From positions 62,001-126,000 of the forward strand of contig JACRNL010000003.1 of assembly GCA_016234935.1 (NCBI GenBank): a stretch of 64,000 nucleotides of DNA, written 5' to 3'. The DNA is from Deltaproteobacteria bacterium. GTDB taxonomy: Bacteria; Desulfobacterota; GWC2-55-46. This document shows positions 12,570 through 56,960 of the stretch, in pieces. The notes beneath the pieces are model-generated. The model was not told where the DNA came from. It was given only the letters and a program-made list of their open reading frames with translations, and made no database searches. The position numbers were made by a program, and so were the translations under genes. The stretch's first letter is position 1; every line of letters begins with the position of its first letter.

Positions 12570-12585
12570 GCCGTTTCCTTCCTTA

Positions 12586-12710
12586 GCAGGCTGCTGAAAA
12601 AGCCCCATCTACGTCGTTGCCTTCGTCGCTCATCATTGCGACGTGCCCAAAAGCACGTCTCATTCTTCGCTCCTCGTCGCCTAGTAGCTGTGGCTTTTTG
12701 AGCAGCCTGC
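12586..12710. repeat. MITE-like palindromic element R1, copy a
   Basis: The element is bounded by GCAGGCTGCTGAAAAAGCC and its inverted complement GGCTTTTTGAGCAGCCTGC. An inner hairpin GACGTGC-ccaaaa-GCACGTC lies at 12640-12659. It separates the kinase and regulator genes of one two-component system. Confidence 0.85.
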
Positions 12711-12746
12711 CCAGATTTTGAGTTTTTCCGAAACTTGTTGGTATCG

Positions 12747-19686: not shown

Positions 19687-19738
19687 GCGCAAAAGAACCG
19701 GCGCGGACCTTATAAGGTCCGCGCCGGTTCTTTTGCGC
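19687..19738. terminator. Perfect 52-bp palindrome, probable terminator
   Basis: Bases 19687-19712 (GCGCAAAAGAACC then GGCGCGGACCTTA) are perfectly complementary to 19713-19738, with no loop bases. It lies 50 bases after the PstS-like gene. It ends transcription by position, although the T run lies within the stem. Confidence 0.6.
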
Positions 19739-19755
19739 CTTTACGGCAGTATTTA

Positions 19756-19914
19756 GCAGGCTGCTGAAAAACGTCCATCTGCTTCGTTGTCATCGTCACT
19801 CCTCATTGCGGCGCACAACAAAGTGCGCTTCATTCGTCGCTCCTCGACGCCTCGCATCTGGCTGGGTTCCCATTGCGTCCTTATTATTGCAATGGGAAGA
19901 TTTGAGCAGCCTGT
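19756..19914. repeat. MITE-like element R1, copy b, with an extra internal hairpin
   Basis: It has the R1 ends (GCAGGCTGCTGAAAAA and TTTGAGCAGCCTG). The inner hairpin is GCGCAC-aacaaa-GTGCGC. Near the right end it has an additional hairpin TTCCCATTGC...GCAATGGGAA at 19867-19898, absent from the other copies, making it 159 bp long. Confidence 0.75.
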
Positions 19915-29186: not shown

Positions 29187-29192
29187 CCTGCC

Positions 29193-29317
29193 GCAGGCTG
29201 CTGAAAAAGCCCCATCTACGTCGTTGCCTTCGTCGCTCATCACTGCGGCGTAGGACACACTACGCCTCGTTCTTCGCTCCTCGTCGCCTGGTAGCTGGGG
29301 CTTTTTGAGCAGCCTGC
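29193..29317. repeat. MITE-like element R1, copy c
   Basis: Ends GCAGGCTGCTGAAAAAGCCC and GGGCTTTTTGAGCAGCCTGC. The inner hairpin GGCGTAG-gacaca-CTACGCC is at 29247-29266. It lies between the AsrB-like gene and comEC. Confidence 0.85.
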
Positions 29318-29358
29318 CCTTAGCAGGGCGTTCAAAAAAACAGATACGTTTTATTTAT

Positions 29359-33640: not shown

Positions 33641-34864
33641 TCATTTTTTCCTGAATGCCGCCTTTGCGGCGTCAATTACCTCTTTGAGGGGGACCTTTTT
33701 TTTGGCGGCTATCGCCCGGCATTCGTCGTATTCAGGTTGTATGTTCACAGGTTTTCCGTTCCTGAGGGATACCTTGAAGCCGACGGTTCCGTAAGGTGTT
33801 TTTACCTTGACGGTCTTTCGCCCAAGGCAATGCCTTTCAACGGCGTAAGACCTTACGCCTATCGAGGTTGATTCCCTGAAGATGGCGTCAACTATGCCGC
33901 TTACCCTGTCACCTTCGGCAAGGGCGCTCAAAAGTATGCCGGGCCTTGTTTTTTTCATCTGCACCGGCGTGAAGTAGACGTCAAGCGCTCCTGCGGCAAA
34001 GAGGGTTTCCATCAGGTATCCGGCTATCTGCGGGCTCATGTCGTCTATGTTCGTTTCTATCATGAAAAGTTTTTCCGCGCCGCGCGCCTGTCCGTTATCG
34101 GCGTGGGGGCTGAGCCCCCTGAGGGGGCCGAGCCCTTTCAACCCGTCCGGCATGACCCCGGTTACCGCGCGCAGCACGTTGGCGCGCTCCTTAAAATCCT
34201 TCTTACCCGCGCCGTAGCCGGTATCTTCGATAATCATGTCCGGTATCGGCCCGAAGCCTGAGGCAATGGTCTTTACAATTGCCGCGCCCGTGGGCGTCGT
34301 AAGTTCAAAGGGCGCGTCTGAAGACAATACCGGCACGCCTTTTAAAAGTTCCACTGTGGCTGGCGCCGGGATGGGCAGTGTGCCGTGCATGGTCTTTGCC
34401 CAGCCGGAACCGAGCGGGATCGGCGAAGAGATGACCCTGTCGGCCTTCAGCGACGTCACGGCAACGGCCGCGCCGACTATGTCTATGATGGAGTCCATTG
34501 CGCCGACCTCGTGGAAGTGCACCTTTTGGGCGCTTATCCCGTGTATCCTGCCCTCTGCCGCGGCGATGTTTTTGAATATGGCGACGCTTAAATCCTTTAC
34601 CTCTTTCGAAAGGGCGCTCGCGGATATGATATTTTTTATGTCCTTGAATGTCCTGTGGCGGTGCTCGTGCATATGCGCCGCCCTGAAGGACGTGGCCGTG
34701 ATGGAGTGGCGCGTCTCTTTGGCAATCTTCACTTTAACGGGGCCCAGGCCGAGCTTTTCTATCTCGCGCAGTATGGCCCTTGAGTCGGCTCCGAGGTCTA
34801 TAAGCGCGGCCAGGAACATGTCGCCGCTTATGCCCATCGGGCAGTCTAAATACAGTATCTTCAT
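33641..34864 (-). CDS. larC: Nickel-pincer cofactor insertion protein LarC
   Basis: LarC inserts nickel into the pyridinium-dithiocarboxylate cofactor used by lactate racemase and related enzymes (CTP-dependent cyclometallase). The 407 residues show the start YLDCPMGISGDMFLAALIDL, the His-rich HMHEHRHRTFKDI, VHFHEVGAMDSIIDIVG, LTTPTGAAI and the C-terminal IETNIDDMSPQIAGYL. Residues about 241-254 (LKGLGPLRGLSP) are an in-frame palindrome copy between the N- and C-terminal halves. It starts directly after the stop of the upstream gene. larB is three genes upstream; no larA or larE is in the window. Confidence 0.94.
   Translation of the reverse strand: MKILYLDCPMGISGDMFLAALIDLGADSRAILREIEKLGLGPVKVKIAKETRHSITATSFRAAHMHEHRHRTFKDIKNIISASALSKEVKDLSVAIFKNIAAAEGRIHGISAQKVHFHEVGAMDSIIDIVGAAVAVTSLKADRVISSPIPLGSGWAKTMHGTLPIPAPATVELLKGVPVLSSDAPFELTTPTGAAIVKTIASGFGPIPDMIIEDTGYGAGKKDFKERANVLRAVTGVMPDGLKGLGPLRGLSPHADNGQARGAEKLFMIETNIDDMSPQIAGYLMETLFAAGALDVYFTPVQMKKTRPGILLSALAEGDRVSGIVDAIFRESTSIGVRSYAVERHCLGRKTVKVKTPYGTVGFKVSLRNGKPVNIQPEYDECRAIAAKKKVPLKEVIDAAKAAFRKK
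34105..34144. repeat. In-frame coding palindrome in larC
   Basis: GGGGGCTGAGCCCCCTGAGG continues GGGCCGAGCCCTTTCAACCC. On the larC strand it reads LKGLGPLRGLSP. Confidence 0.8.
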
Positions 34865-35341
34865 TCAGTCCTCTTCGGTGTCAGGCACGGGCAATATCGC
34901 CGCCAGATCCTGCTCCATGTCCAGGCCGTATTTTATTGAAAGCTGCGCGATGTGGACGCCGAATACGCCTCTCATCTCGCCCAACGCCGCGAAGAATTCC
35001 GCGTTATCGAGTCTTCCGGGAAGACCGCCGGACGGCCTCAGTCTGCCGAGAAATTTAGCGCACGACGCCCGCATGGCCCTGATATGCCCGGCCACTTCAG
35101 GGGGCGCGCTGCCGGAGTCCAGCATATCCGTCAAATGCATGCGCATTTTCATTATAGAGCCGTCTACATAATCCGGCATCTCCGGGTCATACGGGGTATA
35201 GAGCGATCTCTGGTCCTCAAGGAACGAGACGACCATTCCCGCTATTTCCCTGTCGCCTTTGGGCGGGTTCCATTGAACGCCGAAGTACGGCGTGGAGATG
35301 CCGTTCATGCTTTTTATTATTTTACTGAACGGTATCTTCAT
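34865..35341 (-). CDS. Conserved hypothetical protein in the lar cluster
   Basis: The 158-residue soluble protein starts MKIPFSKIIKSMNGISTPYF and contains GVQWNPPKGDREIAGMVVSF, FLEDQRSLYTPYDPEMPDY and HIRAMRASCAKFLGRL. The GISTP..GVQW.PP start and the RAMRASC motif recall a widespread small uncharacterised family (possibly DUF6650), from memory. It has no signal or membrane segment. Its stop abuts the larC ATG, so it is translationally linked to larC. A 24-bp hairpin begins 10 bases before its ATG. Confidence 0.7.
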   Translation of the reverse strand: MKIPFSKIIKSMNGISTPYFGVQWNPPKGDREIAGMVVSFLEDQRSLYTPYDPEMPDYVDGSIMKMRMHLTDMLDSGSAPPEVAGHIRAMRASCAKFLGRLRPSGGLPGRLDNAEFFAALGEMRGVFGVHIAQLSIKYGLDMEQDLAAILPVPDTEED

Positions 35342-35350
35342 CTGGCCATG

Positions 35351-35447
35351 CCCCGCACCACTTTCCGCTGCCAACCCCCGCTTCAGACACGCGAGGGCAG
35401 GCGTTTGTATTACGCATGAACTCTTGGCAGCGGAAAGTGGTGCGGGG
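35351..35447. repeat. 24-bp perfect inverted repeat with a small element in its loop
   Basis: Arm 35351-35374 (CCCCGCACCACTTTCC then GCTGCCAA) is perfectly complementary to 35424-35447. The 49-base loop carries CCCCCGCTTCAGACACGCGA plus GGGCAGGC. The right arm touches the stop codon of the upstream gene, and the left arm lies just 5' of the next start codon on the minus strand. Confidence 0.8.
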
Positions 35448-35783
35448 TTATTTTCTTCCGGTTAATTTTTCCATGAGGGTCTCGGCGCTTAGGTCCCAGT
35501 ATGCGTCCCAGACCTGCTTGGTCTGTTCTGACATGTTTGCAAGACCGCCCTTGCCGTCAAGGTGCTTGTAGTTTTCTATTCTCGCCTGCATGCTTTTAAC
35601 GTTTATGCCGAAGGCCCCGGCAAGCTCCTTGATGTCCTTTTGCGCAAGGTTTATCTTCTTTTCCTGCTCGACCTTGTAAAGATACAGGGCCAGCATATCG
35701 TCTTTTAGCGTCCACTCGTGCTGTTCTTCCGCCCCTTGAAGGGGCTGAGCCCCCTCAGGGGGTTCAACATGTTTTTTTCCCAA
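35448..35783 (-). CDS. Small hypothetical protein carrying the GVEPPEGAQPLQ insert
   Basis: The 111-residue protein starts at TTG 35783 with GGGGGAG upstream. After five residues (MGKKH) comes VEPPEGAQPLQG, encoded by the dispersed palindrome, so the start of the protein has been rebuilt by the repeat. The rest is helical: WTLKDDMLALYLYKVEQ, KDIKELAGAFGINVKSMQAR (helix-turn-helix-like) and AYWDLSAETLMEKL. I do not recognise the family. It lies between larB and the next gene of the lar cluster. Confidence 0.65.
   Translation of the reverse strand: MGKKHVEPPEGAQPLQGAEEQHEWTLKDDMLALYLYKVEQEKKINLAQKDIKELAGAFGINVKSMQARIENYKHLDGKGGLANMSEQTKQVWDAYWDLSAETLMEKLTGRK
35736..35769. repeat. In-frame coding palindrome near a protein N-terminus
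   Basis: TTGAAGGGGCTGAGCCCCCT continues CAGGGGGTTCAACA. On the gene strand it reads VEPPEGAQPLQ, the same register as in cheW and pcrA. Confidence 0.8.
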
Positions 35784-35814: not shown

Positions 35815-36564
35815 TTATTCCCTGTTGATAAGCGACGCGACGTATGCCGCGCCGAAGCCGTTGTCTATGTTCACCACGCTCACCCCGGCGGCGCAGGAGT
35901 TGAGCATGGCCATGAGCGTCGTAAGCCCTCCGAGGTTAGCCCCGTAGCCGATGCTTGTCGGCACGGCGACGACGGGGCGGGCGACGAGGCCGGCGACGAC
36001 GCTCGGGAGCGCGCCCTCCATGCCGGCGACTACGATGAGGACGTTTGCCGACGTTATCTCGGTCTTCTTATGCAGGAGCCTGTGCAGGCCCGCCACCCCG
36101 ACGTCATACAGCCGAACGACGCGGCTGCCCATGCACTCGGCGGTGATAGCCGCCTCCTCGGCCACGGGGACGTCCGACGTGCCCGCGCTTATGACGAGGA
36201 TATAGCCCCGGCCTGTTTCCTTGACGGGATGAGATTTTATGAAAAATGTCTTTGCTGTTTTGTTGTGCGCGCCCATGGGAAAGGCCTTTTTAAGAGAGGC
36301 GGCCTTGGCGGCGTCTAGCCTTGTTATGAGGCAGTTTTCTTTTTTAGATAAAAGGGCCTTTGCGATAGCCTTTATCTGGAGAGGGGTCTTTCCCTGGCCG
36401 AAGATGACCTCCGGGAAACCCTGCCTCAGCGAGCGGTGCGTGTCGATCGTGGCAAATGGAAGCTCCTCAAACGGAAGGAATTTGAGCCTGGCGAGGGCGT
36501 CTTTCGTCTTGACGCGCCCGTCCTTTACGTCTTCAAGCAGTTTTTCCAGCAATTTTACGTTCAT
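35815..36564 (-). CDS. larB: Pyridinium-3,5-bisthiocarboxylate cofactor enzyme LarB
   Basis: LarB carboxylates and hydrolyses nicotinic acid adenine dinucleotide, the first step of nickel-pincer cofactor synthesis. The 249 residues include the N-terminal FATIDTHRSLRQGFPEVIFG and the AIR-carboxylase-like domain (VISAGTSDVPVAEEAAITAE, VVAGMEGALPSVVAGLV, VPTSIGYGANLGGLTTLMAM). The gene leads a minus-strand cluster with two unknown genes and larC. The family is the PurE-like AIR carboxylase superfamily; its features here are intact. Confidence 0.94.
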   Translation of the reverse strand: MNVKLLEKLLEDVKDGRVKTKDALARLKFLPFEELPFATIDTHRSLRQGFPEVIFGQGKTPLQIKAIAKALLSKKENCLITRLDAAKAASLKKAFPMGAHNKTAKTFFIKSHPVKETGRGYILVISAGTSDVPVAEEAAITAECMGSRVVRLYDVGVAGLHRLLHKKTEITSANVLIVVAGMEGALPSVVAGLVARPVVAVPTSIGYGANLGGLTTLMAMLNSCAAGVSVVNIDNGFGAAYVASLINRE

Positions 36565-38267: not shown

Positions 38268-38328
38268 AGTGAACCTCCCCGCGGCAGACCGGCCAGTATG
38301 CGGATGCGAAGTATTCTTCGGGGATTAA

Positions 38329-38452
38329 CAGGCTGCTGAAAAAGCCCCATCTGCGGCGTTGTCTTTGTCGCTCGTCACTGCGGCGTAGGACACACTACGC
38401 CGCATTCCTCGCTCCTCGACGCCTTGTATCTGGAGCTTTTTGAGCAGCCTGC
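38329..38452. repeat. MITE-like element R1, copy d
   Basis: Ends CAGGCTGCTGAAAAAGCCCC and GCTTTTTGAGCAGCCTGC. The inner hairpin GGCGTAG-gacaca-CTACGCC is extended by GC/GC. It lies between cheY and cheA inside the chemotaxis cluster. Confidence 0.85.
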
Positions 38453-38509
38453 GCAAACATGCTTCCCCGCGTCTGCAAGCCCCCCTCGCGTATCCGGCGA
38501 GGGGCGGGT

Positions 38510-38910: not shown

Positions 38911-39408
38911 CTATTGTTCCGACAATATTTTTTTTGTTTCTTCGAAGACCGCCGCCAGGTCAATAAGCTCCACCCCTTGAAGGGGCTGAGCCCCCTCAGG
39001 GGGTTCGCCCTGGCGGGATTGTTCCACATCTATCATACCGTTTGTGAATCTGGGCGTTCCTTCTGACATATCTTCCGGTGAGCCGAGGAAGGCATGAGCG
39101 TTTTTTATCTTTTCTTTCCATATAAAGGACAGGGCGCCGCCGTCAATGTCAAGGCCCACCATCCTGTTCCTGTCCCGGATGACGATTATTTTATGCGGCG
39201 TGCCGCTGCTTGCGTCTTCAGGGGCGCCGAGCGCCTTCCTGCAGTCTATGACCGTGACGGGCTCGCCCATGAGGCTTACCATGCCGTTTACAAAGCCGGA
39301 TTGGCCGGGGATGAAGAAGACCCTGTCGACTTCGAGTATCTTGTGAACGGCCTCTATGTCTATCCCGAAGGTCCTTTCGCCGATTTTGAAGGCTATCTTG
39401 TCTCCCAT
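38911..39408 (-). CDS. cheW: CheW-like coupling protein with repeat-derived insert
   Basis: The 165-residue CheW domain couples receptors to CheA. It has FKIGERTFGIDIEAVHKILE, RVFFIPGQSGFVNGMVSLMG, VTVIDCRKALG and a C-terminal VELIDLAAVFEE. Residues 135-146 (GEPPEGAQPLQG) are encoded by a copy of the coding palindrome. They sit in the loop just before the last conserved strand, a position that probably tolerates extra length. It lies between the MCP gene and cheY. Confidence 0.9.
   Translation of the reverse strand: MGDKIAFKIGERTFGIDIEAVHKILEVDRVFFIPGQSGFVNGMVSLMGEPVTVIDCRKALGAPEDASSGTPHKIIVIRDRNRMVGLDIDGGALSFIWKEKIKNAHAFLGSPEDMSEGTPRFTNGMIDVEQSRQGEPPEGAQPLQGVELIDLAAVFEETKKILSEQ
38973..39006. 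repeat. In-frame coding palindrome in cheW
   Basis: CCCCTTGAAGGGGCTGAGCC continues CCCTCAGGGGGTTC. On the gene strand it reads EPPEGAQPLQG, in the same register as the pcrA copy. Confidence 0.8.
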
Positions 39409-46150: not shown

Positions 46151-48571
46151 TCACCCTATGGGCGTAAGGGAGGCGTACTTCAAGGCGAGCTTTCTCGTGC
46201 CGGCGTCTTTGAAGTTTATCGTCAGTTTTACGTCCTGGCCGCTTCCGGCTTTTTCCTTGATGACGCCGATGCCGAACATGGGGTGCTTGACCTTCATGCC
46301 GATGCGCCATCCGTCCTGTGCGCCGTCCTGTGTCCGGGGGGAGGATAGTTCTCCGGTCACGCCGCCTTTTACCTGGCTGTCTTCGCGCGTGTAGTAGACC
46401 TCGCTGGATGAAAAACGGGGCTTTGCCTGCCGCTCGGAAGATTCGGCGATGGTTATGCGGGCCGGGTCTATCTCGTCAATGAACCTTGAGCGCATCTGCG
46501 TCTTTGTCTGTCCGTAGACCGTCCTCGACCTTGCCGCGAAGAGATAGAGCCGCTCCTTTGCGCGCGTCATGCCGACGTAGCAAAGGCGCCGCTCCTCCTC
46601 AAGCTCGCCTTCGTCGTCTGAGCTCCTCGTGTGCGGGAAGAGGCCCTCTTCCATGCCGGCGATGAAGACGGCCCTGAACTCAAGCCCCTTTGCCGAGTGG
46701 AGCGTCATGAGGGTCAGCCTGTCCGGCGCGTCCTCAAAGCTGTCAATGTCGCTGATCAGCGAGACGTGGTCGAGGAAGTCGGAAAGCGCGGCCATCGGGT
46801 TTATATGCTCGAAGTCCTTTATCGCAGCGATAAGTTCAAAGAGGTTTTCAAGCCGTTCAACGGCCTCCTCCGTGCCTTCCTCCTGCAAAGAGCGCATGTA
46901 GCCGGACTCTTCAAGGAGTTTTAAGGTCAGCCGGTGAAGCTGTTCTTTTTCCATCCCGCCGCCCGCGTTATCCTGCGGCGCGCAGTCCGGTGCCTCATGC
47001 GCATTTGTTGATCCGCCTGAATTTTCAAGCAGCGGCAGGCCGTGGATATTTATGACTCGCTGCCCCCCCACCCCGCCCTCCCCTTGAAGGGGCTGAGCCC
47101 CCTCAGGGGGTTCAACCCCCGTGAAGGGGGAGGATATAAGGAAGGGGGCATCGCTCAGGCCGCAGCCTTTTTTAAAGGCGTCAATGGCCCGGACGAATTC
47201 GTGCGCGCGGGTCTTTGTGAGCTGTCCGCCTGCAAGCATATCCTTGAGCGCATCGTAAGGCGTCAGACCGGAGGCGGCGCTTAGAGCTAAAATCCTGTCG
47301 AGCGTGGCCTTGCCTACGAGCCTTGCGGGCCTGTTTATGGCCCTCTGGAAGCTCAGGGCGTCGGCTGGGTTTACGGCCACGCGCAGGTAAGCAATGGCGT
47401 CTTTTATTTCAAGCCGGTCGTAAAAGCGCGTGCCGCCGATGATGGCGTAGGGGATGCCTTCCCTTATCAGCTGTTCTTCAAACACCCTGGACTGCGCGTT
47501 TGTCCGGTAGAATATGGCCGCGTCTTTATATGTGTAACGCCTGTGCTCGTCAAAGAGGCTCTTTATGCGCCTGATTATCAGTCTGGCCTCGGCGTATTCG
47601 TCGCCGGCCTCTTCGAACATCACGGGCTGGCCGTCCGAATTTTGCGTCCACAGCTCTTTTTTCAGCCGCTTTTTATTCTTTTCGATGACCGAGTTCGCCG
47701 CCGAGAGGATGTTTTTCGTGGAGCGGTAGTTTTGCTCAAGCCTCAGGACTGTCGCCGCAGGGTAGTCCTTTTCGAACTCAAGGATGTTGGATATGCACGC
47801 GCCCCTCCACGCGTAGATGGACTGGTCAGGGTCGCCCACGGCAAGGAGGTTGCCGGCCCCTTCGGCAAGCATCTGCGTGAAAAGGTATTGCGCCCGGTTC
47901 GTATCCTGATATTCGTCAACGAGGATGTGCCGGAAGCGGTCGTGGTATTTTTTAAGGATGTTCGCGTTTTGTTTCAGGAGCTTTATCGGCTCGCAGATAA
48001 GGTCGCCGAAGTCCATGGAGTTCATCTGCCGCAGTTTTTTCTGGTAGAGCGCATAGACCTTCGCCGCCCGCTCCGCCGCAAAGCCGCCGCCCTCGTTCAT
48101 GGAAAGGAAGCTCTCAGGCGTGATGTTTTCGTTCTTTGCCTGGTTTATCTGCGAGAGCATGGCGCGAGGGGCAAAGCTCTTTTCGCTGAGGAGCAGTTCG
48201 GCCATGACCTGCTTCACGAGAGAGAGCTGGTCGTCGTCGTTGTAGACCGTCAGGTCGGCGTTGACGCCTGAACTTCTTCTTTCAGTCCTTAGAATCCTCA
48301 GGCCTATGGAATGGAAGGTGCCGAGCCAGAGCTCGCGCGCCTTGTCCCCCATCAGGGATTCAAGGCGCATACGCATCTCCCCCGCGGCCTTGTTGGTGAA
48401 TGTCACGGCAAGGATGCTATGCGCCGGAACGCCCCTGTGCATGACGAGATATGCCACCCTTGAGGTCAGCACCTTTGTCTTTCCGCTTCCGGCCCCGGCC
48501 AGAATAAGAAGCGGCCCGTCCGGCGCGGTTGCGGCCTCAAGCTGAGTGGGGTTAAGGGTCTTCAGGAACAT
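46151..48571 (-). CDS. pcrA: UvrD/PcrA-family DNA helicase
   Basis: This superfamily 1A 3'-5' helicase acts in repair and in removing proteins from DNA. The 806 residues carry LAGAGSGKTKVLTSRVAYL (motif I), FTNKAAGEMRMRL (Ia), LVDEYQDTNRAQY (II), GDPDQSIYAWRGA (III), LEQNYRSTKNIL (IV), LMTLHSAKGLEF (V) and EERRLCYVGMTRAKERLYL (VI). The C-terminal KVKHPMFGIGVI tail is typical of PcrA. Around residues 475-500 a repeat-coded stretch (FLISSPFTGVEPPEGAQPLQ then GEGGVGG) interrupts the 2B subdomain region. It consists of one palindrome nested within another, both in frame. Confidence 0.95.
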   Translation of the reverse strand: MFLKTLNPTQLEAATAPDGPLLILAGAGSGKTKVLTSRVAYLVMHRGVPAHSILAVTFTNKAAGEMRMRLESLMGDKARELWLGTFHSIGLRILRTERRSSGVNADLTVYNDDDQLSLVKQVMAELLLSEKSFAPRAMLSQINQAKNENITPESFLSMNEGGGFAAERAAKVYALYQKKLRQMNSMDFGDLICEPIKLLKQNANILKKYHDRFRHILVDEYQDTNRAQYLFTQMLAEGAGNLLAVGDPDQSIYAWRGACISNILEFEKDYPAATVLRLEQNYRSTKNILSAANSVIEKNKKRLKKELWTQNSDGQPVMFEEAGDEYAEARLIIRRIKSLFDEHRRYTYKDAAIFYRTNAQSRVFEEQLIREGIPYAIIGGTRFYDRLEIKDAIAYLRVAVNPADALSFQRAINRPARLVGKATLDRILALSAASGLTPYDALKDMLAGGQLTKTRAHEFVRAIDAFKKGCGLSDAPFLISSPFTGVEPPEGAQPLQGEGGVGGQRVINIHGLPLLENSGGSTNAHEAPDCAPQDNAGGGMEKEQLHRLTLKLLEESGYMRSLQEEGTEEAVERLENLFELIAAIKDFEHINPMAALSDFLDHVSLISDIDSFEDAPDRLTLMTLHSAKGLEFRAVFIAGMEEGLFPHTRSSDDEGELEEERRLCYVGMTRAKERLYLFAARSRTVYGQTKTQMRSRFIDEIDPARITIAESSERQAKPRFSSSEVYYTREDSQVKGGVTGELSSPRTQDGAQDGWRIGMKVKHPMFGIGVIKEKAGSGQDVKLTINFKDAGTRKLALKYASLTPIG
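47061..47152. repeat. Nested palindromes inside pcrA
   Basis: The outer repeat is CCCCCCCACCCCGCCCTCCC ... GTGAAGGGGGAGGATATAAG and matches 14347-14399. Between its arms lies the 36-bp palindrome 47084-47119. Removing these 36 bases restores CCCTCCCCCGTGAAGGGGGA exactly. Confidence 0.9.
47084..47119. repeat. 36-bp coding palindrome in pcrA, reference copy
   Basis: TTGAAGGGGCTGAGCCCCCT continues CAGGGGGTTCAACCCC. It begins and ends on codon boundaries of pcrA (codons 485-496) and reads GVEPPEGAQPLQ. Confidence 0.88.
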
Positions 48572-48617
48572 CTTTTTATTTTAAGGCAAGCGGGCCTTAA
48601 GATAAAGGCATTTCTAT

Positions 48618-48741
48618 CAGGCTGCTGACACAGCCCCATCTACGTCGTTGTCTTCGTCGCTCATCACTGCGGCGTAGGACACACTACGCCTCGTTCTTCG
48701 CTCCTCGCCGCCTAGTAGCTGGGGCTTTTTGAGCAGCCTGC
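48618..48741. repeat. MITE-like element R1, copy e
   Basis: Ends CAGGCTGCTGACACAGCCCC and GGGGCTTTTTGAGCAGCCTG; the left arm has two changes. The inner hairpin is GGCGTAG-gacaca-CTACGCC. It lies in the divergent gap between pcrA and glgA. Confidence 0.85.
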
Positions 48742-48778
48742 CGGGGGACTGCCTCAAGCGTCTCATCTATTGCATTGT

Positions 48779-54820: not shown

Positions 54821-54902
54821 CCCCCGCTTAGACCCCCGCTTTAGGCACGTGAGGGCAGGCATGCGAGGGCAGGCATGCGAGGGCAGGCATGCGAGGGCAG
54901 GC
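54821..54902. repeat. Tandemly expanded gcgagggcaggc element
   Basis: CCCCCGCTTAGACCCCCGCT and TTAGGCACGTGAGGGCAGGC are followed by three exact 14-bp units ATGCGAGGGCAGGC (54861-54902). It lies directly after amt and before the PII gene. Confidence 0.8.
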
Positions 54903-54921
54903 GGTTTTTTGATGACGGTGA

Positions 54922-56750: not shown

Positions 56751-56786
56751 AAAGACGCCATGTTAAAACATGGCGTCTTTGTATTT
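56751..56786 (+). terminator. Intrinsic terminator after the second amt
   Basis: AAAGACGCCATGTT (56751-56764) pairs perfectly with AACATGGCGTCTTT (56767-56780), then GTATTTT. Confidence 0.8.
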
Positions 56787-56788
56787 TA

Positions 56789-56913
56789 GCAGGCTGCTGA
56801 AAAAGCCCCATCTACGTCGTTGTCCGCGTCGCTCGTCACTGCGGCGTGCCCAAAAGCACGCCTCGTTCCTCTCTCCTTGACGCCTAGTAGCTGGGGCTTT
56901 TTGAGCAGTCTGC
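56789..56913. repeat. MITE-like element R1, copy f
   Basis: Ends GCAGGCTGCTGAAAAAGCCC and GGGCTTTTTGAGCAGTCTGC. The inner hairpin is GGCGTGC-ccaaaa-GCACGCC (56843-56862). It lies between the amt terminator and nirB. Confidence 0.85.
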
Positions 56914-56960
56914 CGTGAATATTTGGTTTGTCAACAATCTTTTAAGGAAAGCGGGGGAAG

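Follow-up and report, generated by a model that had tools for sequence, protein, structure and literature searches.

A perfect hairpin at a lar locus as a probable case of one small mobile palindrome within another

Does the perfect hairpin that precedes the last two genes of a deltaproteobacterial lar locus serve those genes, or did it arrive there for reasons of its own? In the window (the whole stretch of 64,000 nucleotides that was analysed), the minus strand carries, in order, a larB-like gene, an open reading frame (ORF) of 111 amino acids, the hairpin, a DUF6650 gene and larC. The features are as follows, with H and A denoting two families of repeats.

35815..36564, minus strand: larB-like gene (PF00731, AIRC)
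35448..35783, minus strand: 111-aa ORF, no Pfam match, present in 1/30 family genomes, with an in-frame B repeat (PPEGAQPLQG)
35351..35447, minus strand: H element, a dispersed palindrome, 97 bp here (70 bp plus a 27-bp insert)
35424..35447, minus strand: gene-strand 5′ arm of H, directly adjoining the TAA that ends the upstream ORF
35402..35423, minus strand: H's own 22-nt loop (GAGTTCATGCGTAATACAAACG), its final AACG being the point after which A is inserted
35375..35401, minus strand: A element, 27 bp, with a CCTG tag, 7-bp stem and 9-nt loop, inserted precisely at AACG^TT without duplication
35351..35374, minus strand: 3′ arm of H, with GGGG at its end; nothing else Shine-Dalgarno-like was seen ahead of the DUF6650 start
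34865..35341, minus strand: DUF6650 protein gene (PF20355), start at 35341
33641..34864, minus strand: larC (PF01969, nickel insertion protein)

The geometry described in the initial annotation is confirmed. The two arms (35351-35374 and 35424-35447), each 24 nt long, are 100% complementary and enclose 49 nt. One arm directly adjoins the TAA of the 111-aa ORF (35450-35448, minus strand), and the other, whose final four bases are GGGG, stops at 35351, 9 nt upstream of the ATG at 35341. This ATG is the likely DUF6650 start because the homologue in a related genome, G027, also begins MKIP. Folded as minus-strand RNA, the hairpin has a predicted energy of -68.7 kcal/mol (z = -8.0), and 0/200 shuffles were equally stable. 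Rfam at gathering score gives 0 matches in the window, so a known Rfam RNA was rejected as its identity. The repeat reported in the loop is also real: positions 35375-35401 are a mobile 27-bp element, A, lying within a mobile 70-bp palindrome, H.

What the initial annotation did not have is that the hairpin arms themselves form a repeat family. A search of the 2.15-Mb genome with the 24-nt arm, allowing up to 3 mismatches, returned 21 matches against 0 for a reversed control pattern, and these matches pair into copies of a palindrome of about 70 bp. With a loose pattern that may have admitted a few diverged members, 27 copies were extracted; a further copy carrying several inserts (L019) brings the number to about 28. 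Exact arm-pair matches in named records amount to 13 stretches, all from metagenome-assembled genomes of groundwater Deltaproteobacteria. An H covariance model, counted over both strands of the palindrome and with 150 candidates scored per genome, finds matches in 6/30 family genomes. Since conservation across genera is limited to the outer arms, H was rejected as a fixed-sequence regulatory RNA.

The arms of H have the form of terminal inverted repeats, with 89% of cells paired across 17 distinct rows. Because the consensus stem has breaks close to the loop (columns 17 and 19 are unpaired in 14/17 and 13/17 rows), the perfect arms in the window, which form the longest uninterrupted stem (24 bp) of the 27 extracted copies ahead of a runner-up of 18, may represent a corrected palindrome. 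Covariation between the arms (8 cells changed on both sides vs 3.7 in shuffles, 0/500 shuffles) hints weakly at selection on structure or at template-switch correction between arms, two causes that look the same in this count. In 11/27 copies, the palindrome runs on for 3 bp or more into the sequence flanking H, compared with a mean of 2.6 and a maximum of 9 in 5000 permutations. Judged from its own flanks, the window copy shows no target duplication beside it. An empty site was sought in G012, a genome in which identical H copies occur at many sites and sit centrally in larger repeats; there, the host repeats that lack H have another small hairpin in the middle. At contig ends of G012 (L100, L104, L105, L108), H lies inside longer near-identical repeats that end the contigs, as if a larger element had recently been amplified.

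Other repeats share the window. A palindromic repeat, D2 (CCCCTTGAAGGGGCTGAGCCCCCTCAGGGGG), occurs at 35729-35768, 38970-39009, 47077-47116 and elsewhere, encoding PPEGAQPLQG in frame both in the 111-aa ORF and in the ORF at 38911-39408. A 144-nt direct repeat, D1, has six copies spaced 7-10 kb apart (12583-12726, 19753-19896, 29190-29333, 38325-38468, 48614-48757, 56786-56929), and a perfect 26-bp palindrome without spacer lies at 19687-19738.

The insert, A, belongs to a far more numerous family of 27-bp hairpins, each with a CNTG tag (C[A/C/T]TG in 18 aligned copies), a 7-bp stem and a 9-nt loop. This genome holds at least 151 model matches, and 165 copies were extracted. Elsewhere in the family, again among 150 scored candidates per genome, the model matches 17 times in G012, 10 times in G011, twice in G019 and once each in G020 and G023; a survey of 48 genomes of the order added a single match, in G035, a genome from another family. 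A and H each occur in 6/30 family genomes, 5 of them common to both, with genomes counted without correction for kinship. In the window, 8/9 A copies (at most 3 mismatches) lie on the minus strand, an excess perhaps tied to the direction of replication or of the genes; over the whole genome, copies are mixed between strands. The literature searched yielded no description of H or A, a statement that holds for those searches only.

Insertion of A leaves a consistent signature. Excising the 27 bp restores an empty H with zero duplicated bases, and the target duplication is likewise 0 bp where A lies in H loops, in other A copies and in the gene for RecG. The CNTG end lies immediately 3′ of a short motif, most often one with a final G (AACG, ATG, CAG), and the preceding base is G in 66/97 distinct other sites. 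A is present in 5/27 extracted H copies and in L019, distinct H copies being mostly empty. By length alone, 165 A copies would be expected to give 0.14 insertions in all H copies and 0.34 in A. Among 22 cases of A within A with a recognisable outer copy, all 16 in the same orientation enter the outer loop at offset 14 and all 6 in the opposite orientation at offset 15. Five of the 22 have an identical outer junction sequence and, judging by that junction, may be one amplified composite rather than independent events. At window positions 54821-54905, tandem 5′ halves of A (unit of about 14 bp) surround a nested copy, as if nesting had been followed by slippage.

For the question of loops in general, the analysis omitted 30/165 copies lying within A-like sequence and reduced the other 135 to 97 distinct sites. 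At 15/97 of these, the junction lies between the two sides of a stem of 6 bp or more, compared with a mean of 3.96 and a maximum of 10 in 400 permutations. Sliding the junction by 20-25 bases still gives 5 to 13 such sites, vs 15 at the true junction; the neighbourhoods are therefore palindrome-rich in any case, and the preference for loops in general comes out as moderate. Many A copies lie outside hairpin loops. The loops of H and A are strongly over-used as A sites, and other hairpin loops moderately so. A further widespread palindrome (CGTTCCCACG...CGTGGGAACG) has A in its loop in L033, L035, L037 and L159.

Insertion of A into loops is directional and duplicates nothing, a behaviour that suggests folded single-stranded DNA as the target. 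With its placement 3′ of a short motif, it resembles the single-strand transposition of IS200/IS605-type elements, and by this analogy an enzyme acting in trans would carry out the insertion. For one hairpin to enter the loop of another is unusual. At the lar locus, a copy of H lies between two genes of the series larB-[111-aa ORF]-DUF6650-larC, and A, an independent 27-bp mobile hairpin, entered its loop later. We consider it probable that this is how the window hairpin arose, and that any effect on the lar genes is a by-product.

If A moves with an enzyme from elsewhere, one candidate is RAYT (TnpA-REP), with A as a classical REP. The layout of a short stem-loop with a tetranucleotide tag, the high copy number and the absence of target duplication all speak for this explanation, but the tag of A is CNTG, not the GTAG/GTGG found at the foot of REP hairpins. 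Further, a search for the Y1/RAYT transposase (PF01797, the Pfam model for the IS200/IS605-type enzymes; E<=0.01) gave 0 matches in this genome (G000), control genomes being positive, and none in the A-bearing G012 and G019. PF01797 does occur in 8/30 family genomes, with a distribution that tracks neither A nor H. Because this genome has no PF01797 match, A and H fail as a REP/RAYT system; a RAYT-driven REP was rejected, and we regard the explanation as unlikely.

An alternative closer to the initial annotation makes the hairpin a cis-regulator dedicated to the lar genes (a translation block, an attenuator or an RNase III site) and kept by selection. It is very stable, adjoins a stop codon and covers the GGGG before the next start. 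In the predicted mRNA, the probability of being unpaired is 0.002 for the GGGG and 0.26 for the DUF6650 ATG. On this prediction, the 24-bp stem probably buries the only Shine-Dalgarno-like stretch of the gene preceding larC, and it is plausible that the hairpin hides the DUF6650 translation start. With the GGGG buried, translation of DUF6650 and larC should drop or be coupled; the stem may also serve as a substrate for RNase III. The same sequence family stands at about 27 other places, and the neighbouring 111-aa ORF is an orphan. We examined 28 larC-bearing relatives, in 26 of which larB is visible upstream, the other two being cut by contig ends. The H arms and A are absent from the larB-larC interval in all 26; in G027, DUF6650 occupies the same place, a few bases downstream of larB. 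The hairpin is therefore not conserved lar regulation, and a conserved lar regulator was rejected. Taken with the presence of the 111-aa ORF in one family genome out of 30, the comparison marks the lar hairpin as an insertion private to this genome within the set compared. Consequently, a dedicated role for larC is disfavoured, and we hold such a regulator to be quite improbable. The hairpin is debris of genomic parasites, not a dedicated larC switch, and any effect on translation or RNase III processing would be a by-product of insertion.

It might also be that H spread with A already inside, as one composite, such that A never entered independently here. A has the same point of entry and the same orientation in L007, L010 and L003, so some filled H copies may indeed descend from one filled copy. 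However, most H copies are empty, and the window insert does not match the others. It sits at AACG^TT on the minus strand, while in L007 and L010 it sits at AACG^TT on the plus strand, 2 bp away, and in L003 at AATG^TT, all three in the opposite orientation to the window insert. Opposite orientations indicate independent insertions, and there is little chance that a ready-made composite accounts for the window copy. An intrinsic terminator is scarcely credible and was rejected: a strong GC-rich stem does stand between two genes, a T-rich stretch lies beyond it on the plus strand, and the scan gives terminator-like matches on that strand, where no plus-strand gene is evident, but the gene strand has no T-run after the stem, the minus-strand scan is empty there, contrary to the proposed transcription end, and a 49-nt loop is long for intrinsic terminators.

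Counting against the reading we prefer, a mobile H entered by a mobile A, many copies of A lie in protein-coding genes. Codon scoring places 57/165 A copies within ORFs, in all phases and both orientations. The gene for RecG carries two. At one of these sites, the nine residues encoded by A are missing in 19/19 aligned relatives, and the net difference, by alignment count, is exactly 9 in 14 of them, which supports a 27-bp unit inserted without duplication. Across L045:632-3025 (minus strand), L064, L036, L008, L160, L174 and L039, A is found in frame within housekeeping proteins: twice in RecG and, on inspection of the sequence by eye, in GH57-, HtrA-, RimO-, MutS- and GcvPB-like proteins. 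We speculate, tentatively, that 27-nt hairpins might spread by strand-specific, duplication-free insertion into loops of folded single strands through a non-Y1 enzyme, nesting in the series large MITE > H > A > A and lengthening housekeeping proteins by nine in-frame residues, whatever the frame or orientation. This broader proposal is doubtful as a whole.

The spread of small palindromic repeats is still called poorly understood in the TnpA-REP literature, according to the available part of one such source (PMC8266576). If the rule of loop insertion is true, sequence alone records how very small palindromic repeats spread. The target rule is directly testable, with a fixed point in 22/22 cases of A within A and a single motif serving both strands of the H loop. 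At the lar locus, the hairpin would be a genome-specific insertion rather than a regulator, though one that may affect translation.

How, then, do H and A compare with known systems? Very small mobile repeats are reportedly represented among the small dispersed repeats of cyanobacteria described by Elhai et al. in 2008. Besides the tag and the missing enzyme, A differs from REP/REPIN families with RAYT in its 9-nt loop and its many copies within genes. REPINs inserted into or beside other REPINs are noted in the available text of PMC3116915. CGTC-tagged REPs and Rickettsia palindromic elements are short tagged palindromes without a known transposase that also lie in frame in ORFs, including DNA-repair genes, according to the part of PMC3733652 available. 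A likewise lies in frame within protein-coding genes, but it has a CNTG tag, a different sequence and none of the unpaired CCA tails reported there; its exact nesting in hairpin loops goes unmentioned for those elements in the same portion of PMC3733652. Bacterial MITEs (Correia/NEMIS, ERIC, RU) are described in the available text of PMC2229807 as non-autonomous, with terminal inverted repeats and stable transcript hairpins that are possible RNase III substrates. H shares the terminal inverted repeats, but at about 70 bp it is shorter than the roughly 100-200 bp given in that text; no TA target duplication is seen at H, and its flanks often form inverted rather than direct repeats. Like A, the insertion sequences that target REP palindromes go into one set position within a palindromic repeat, but they are full insertion sequences with their own transposase and often with direct repeats (PMC1525189, in the part available), in contrast to the 27 bp of A, which has neither. 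We place H and A among the small palindromic mobile repeats as a variant of their own, not as members of the REP/RAYT families.
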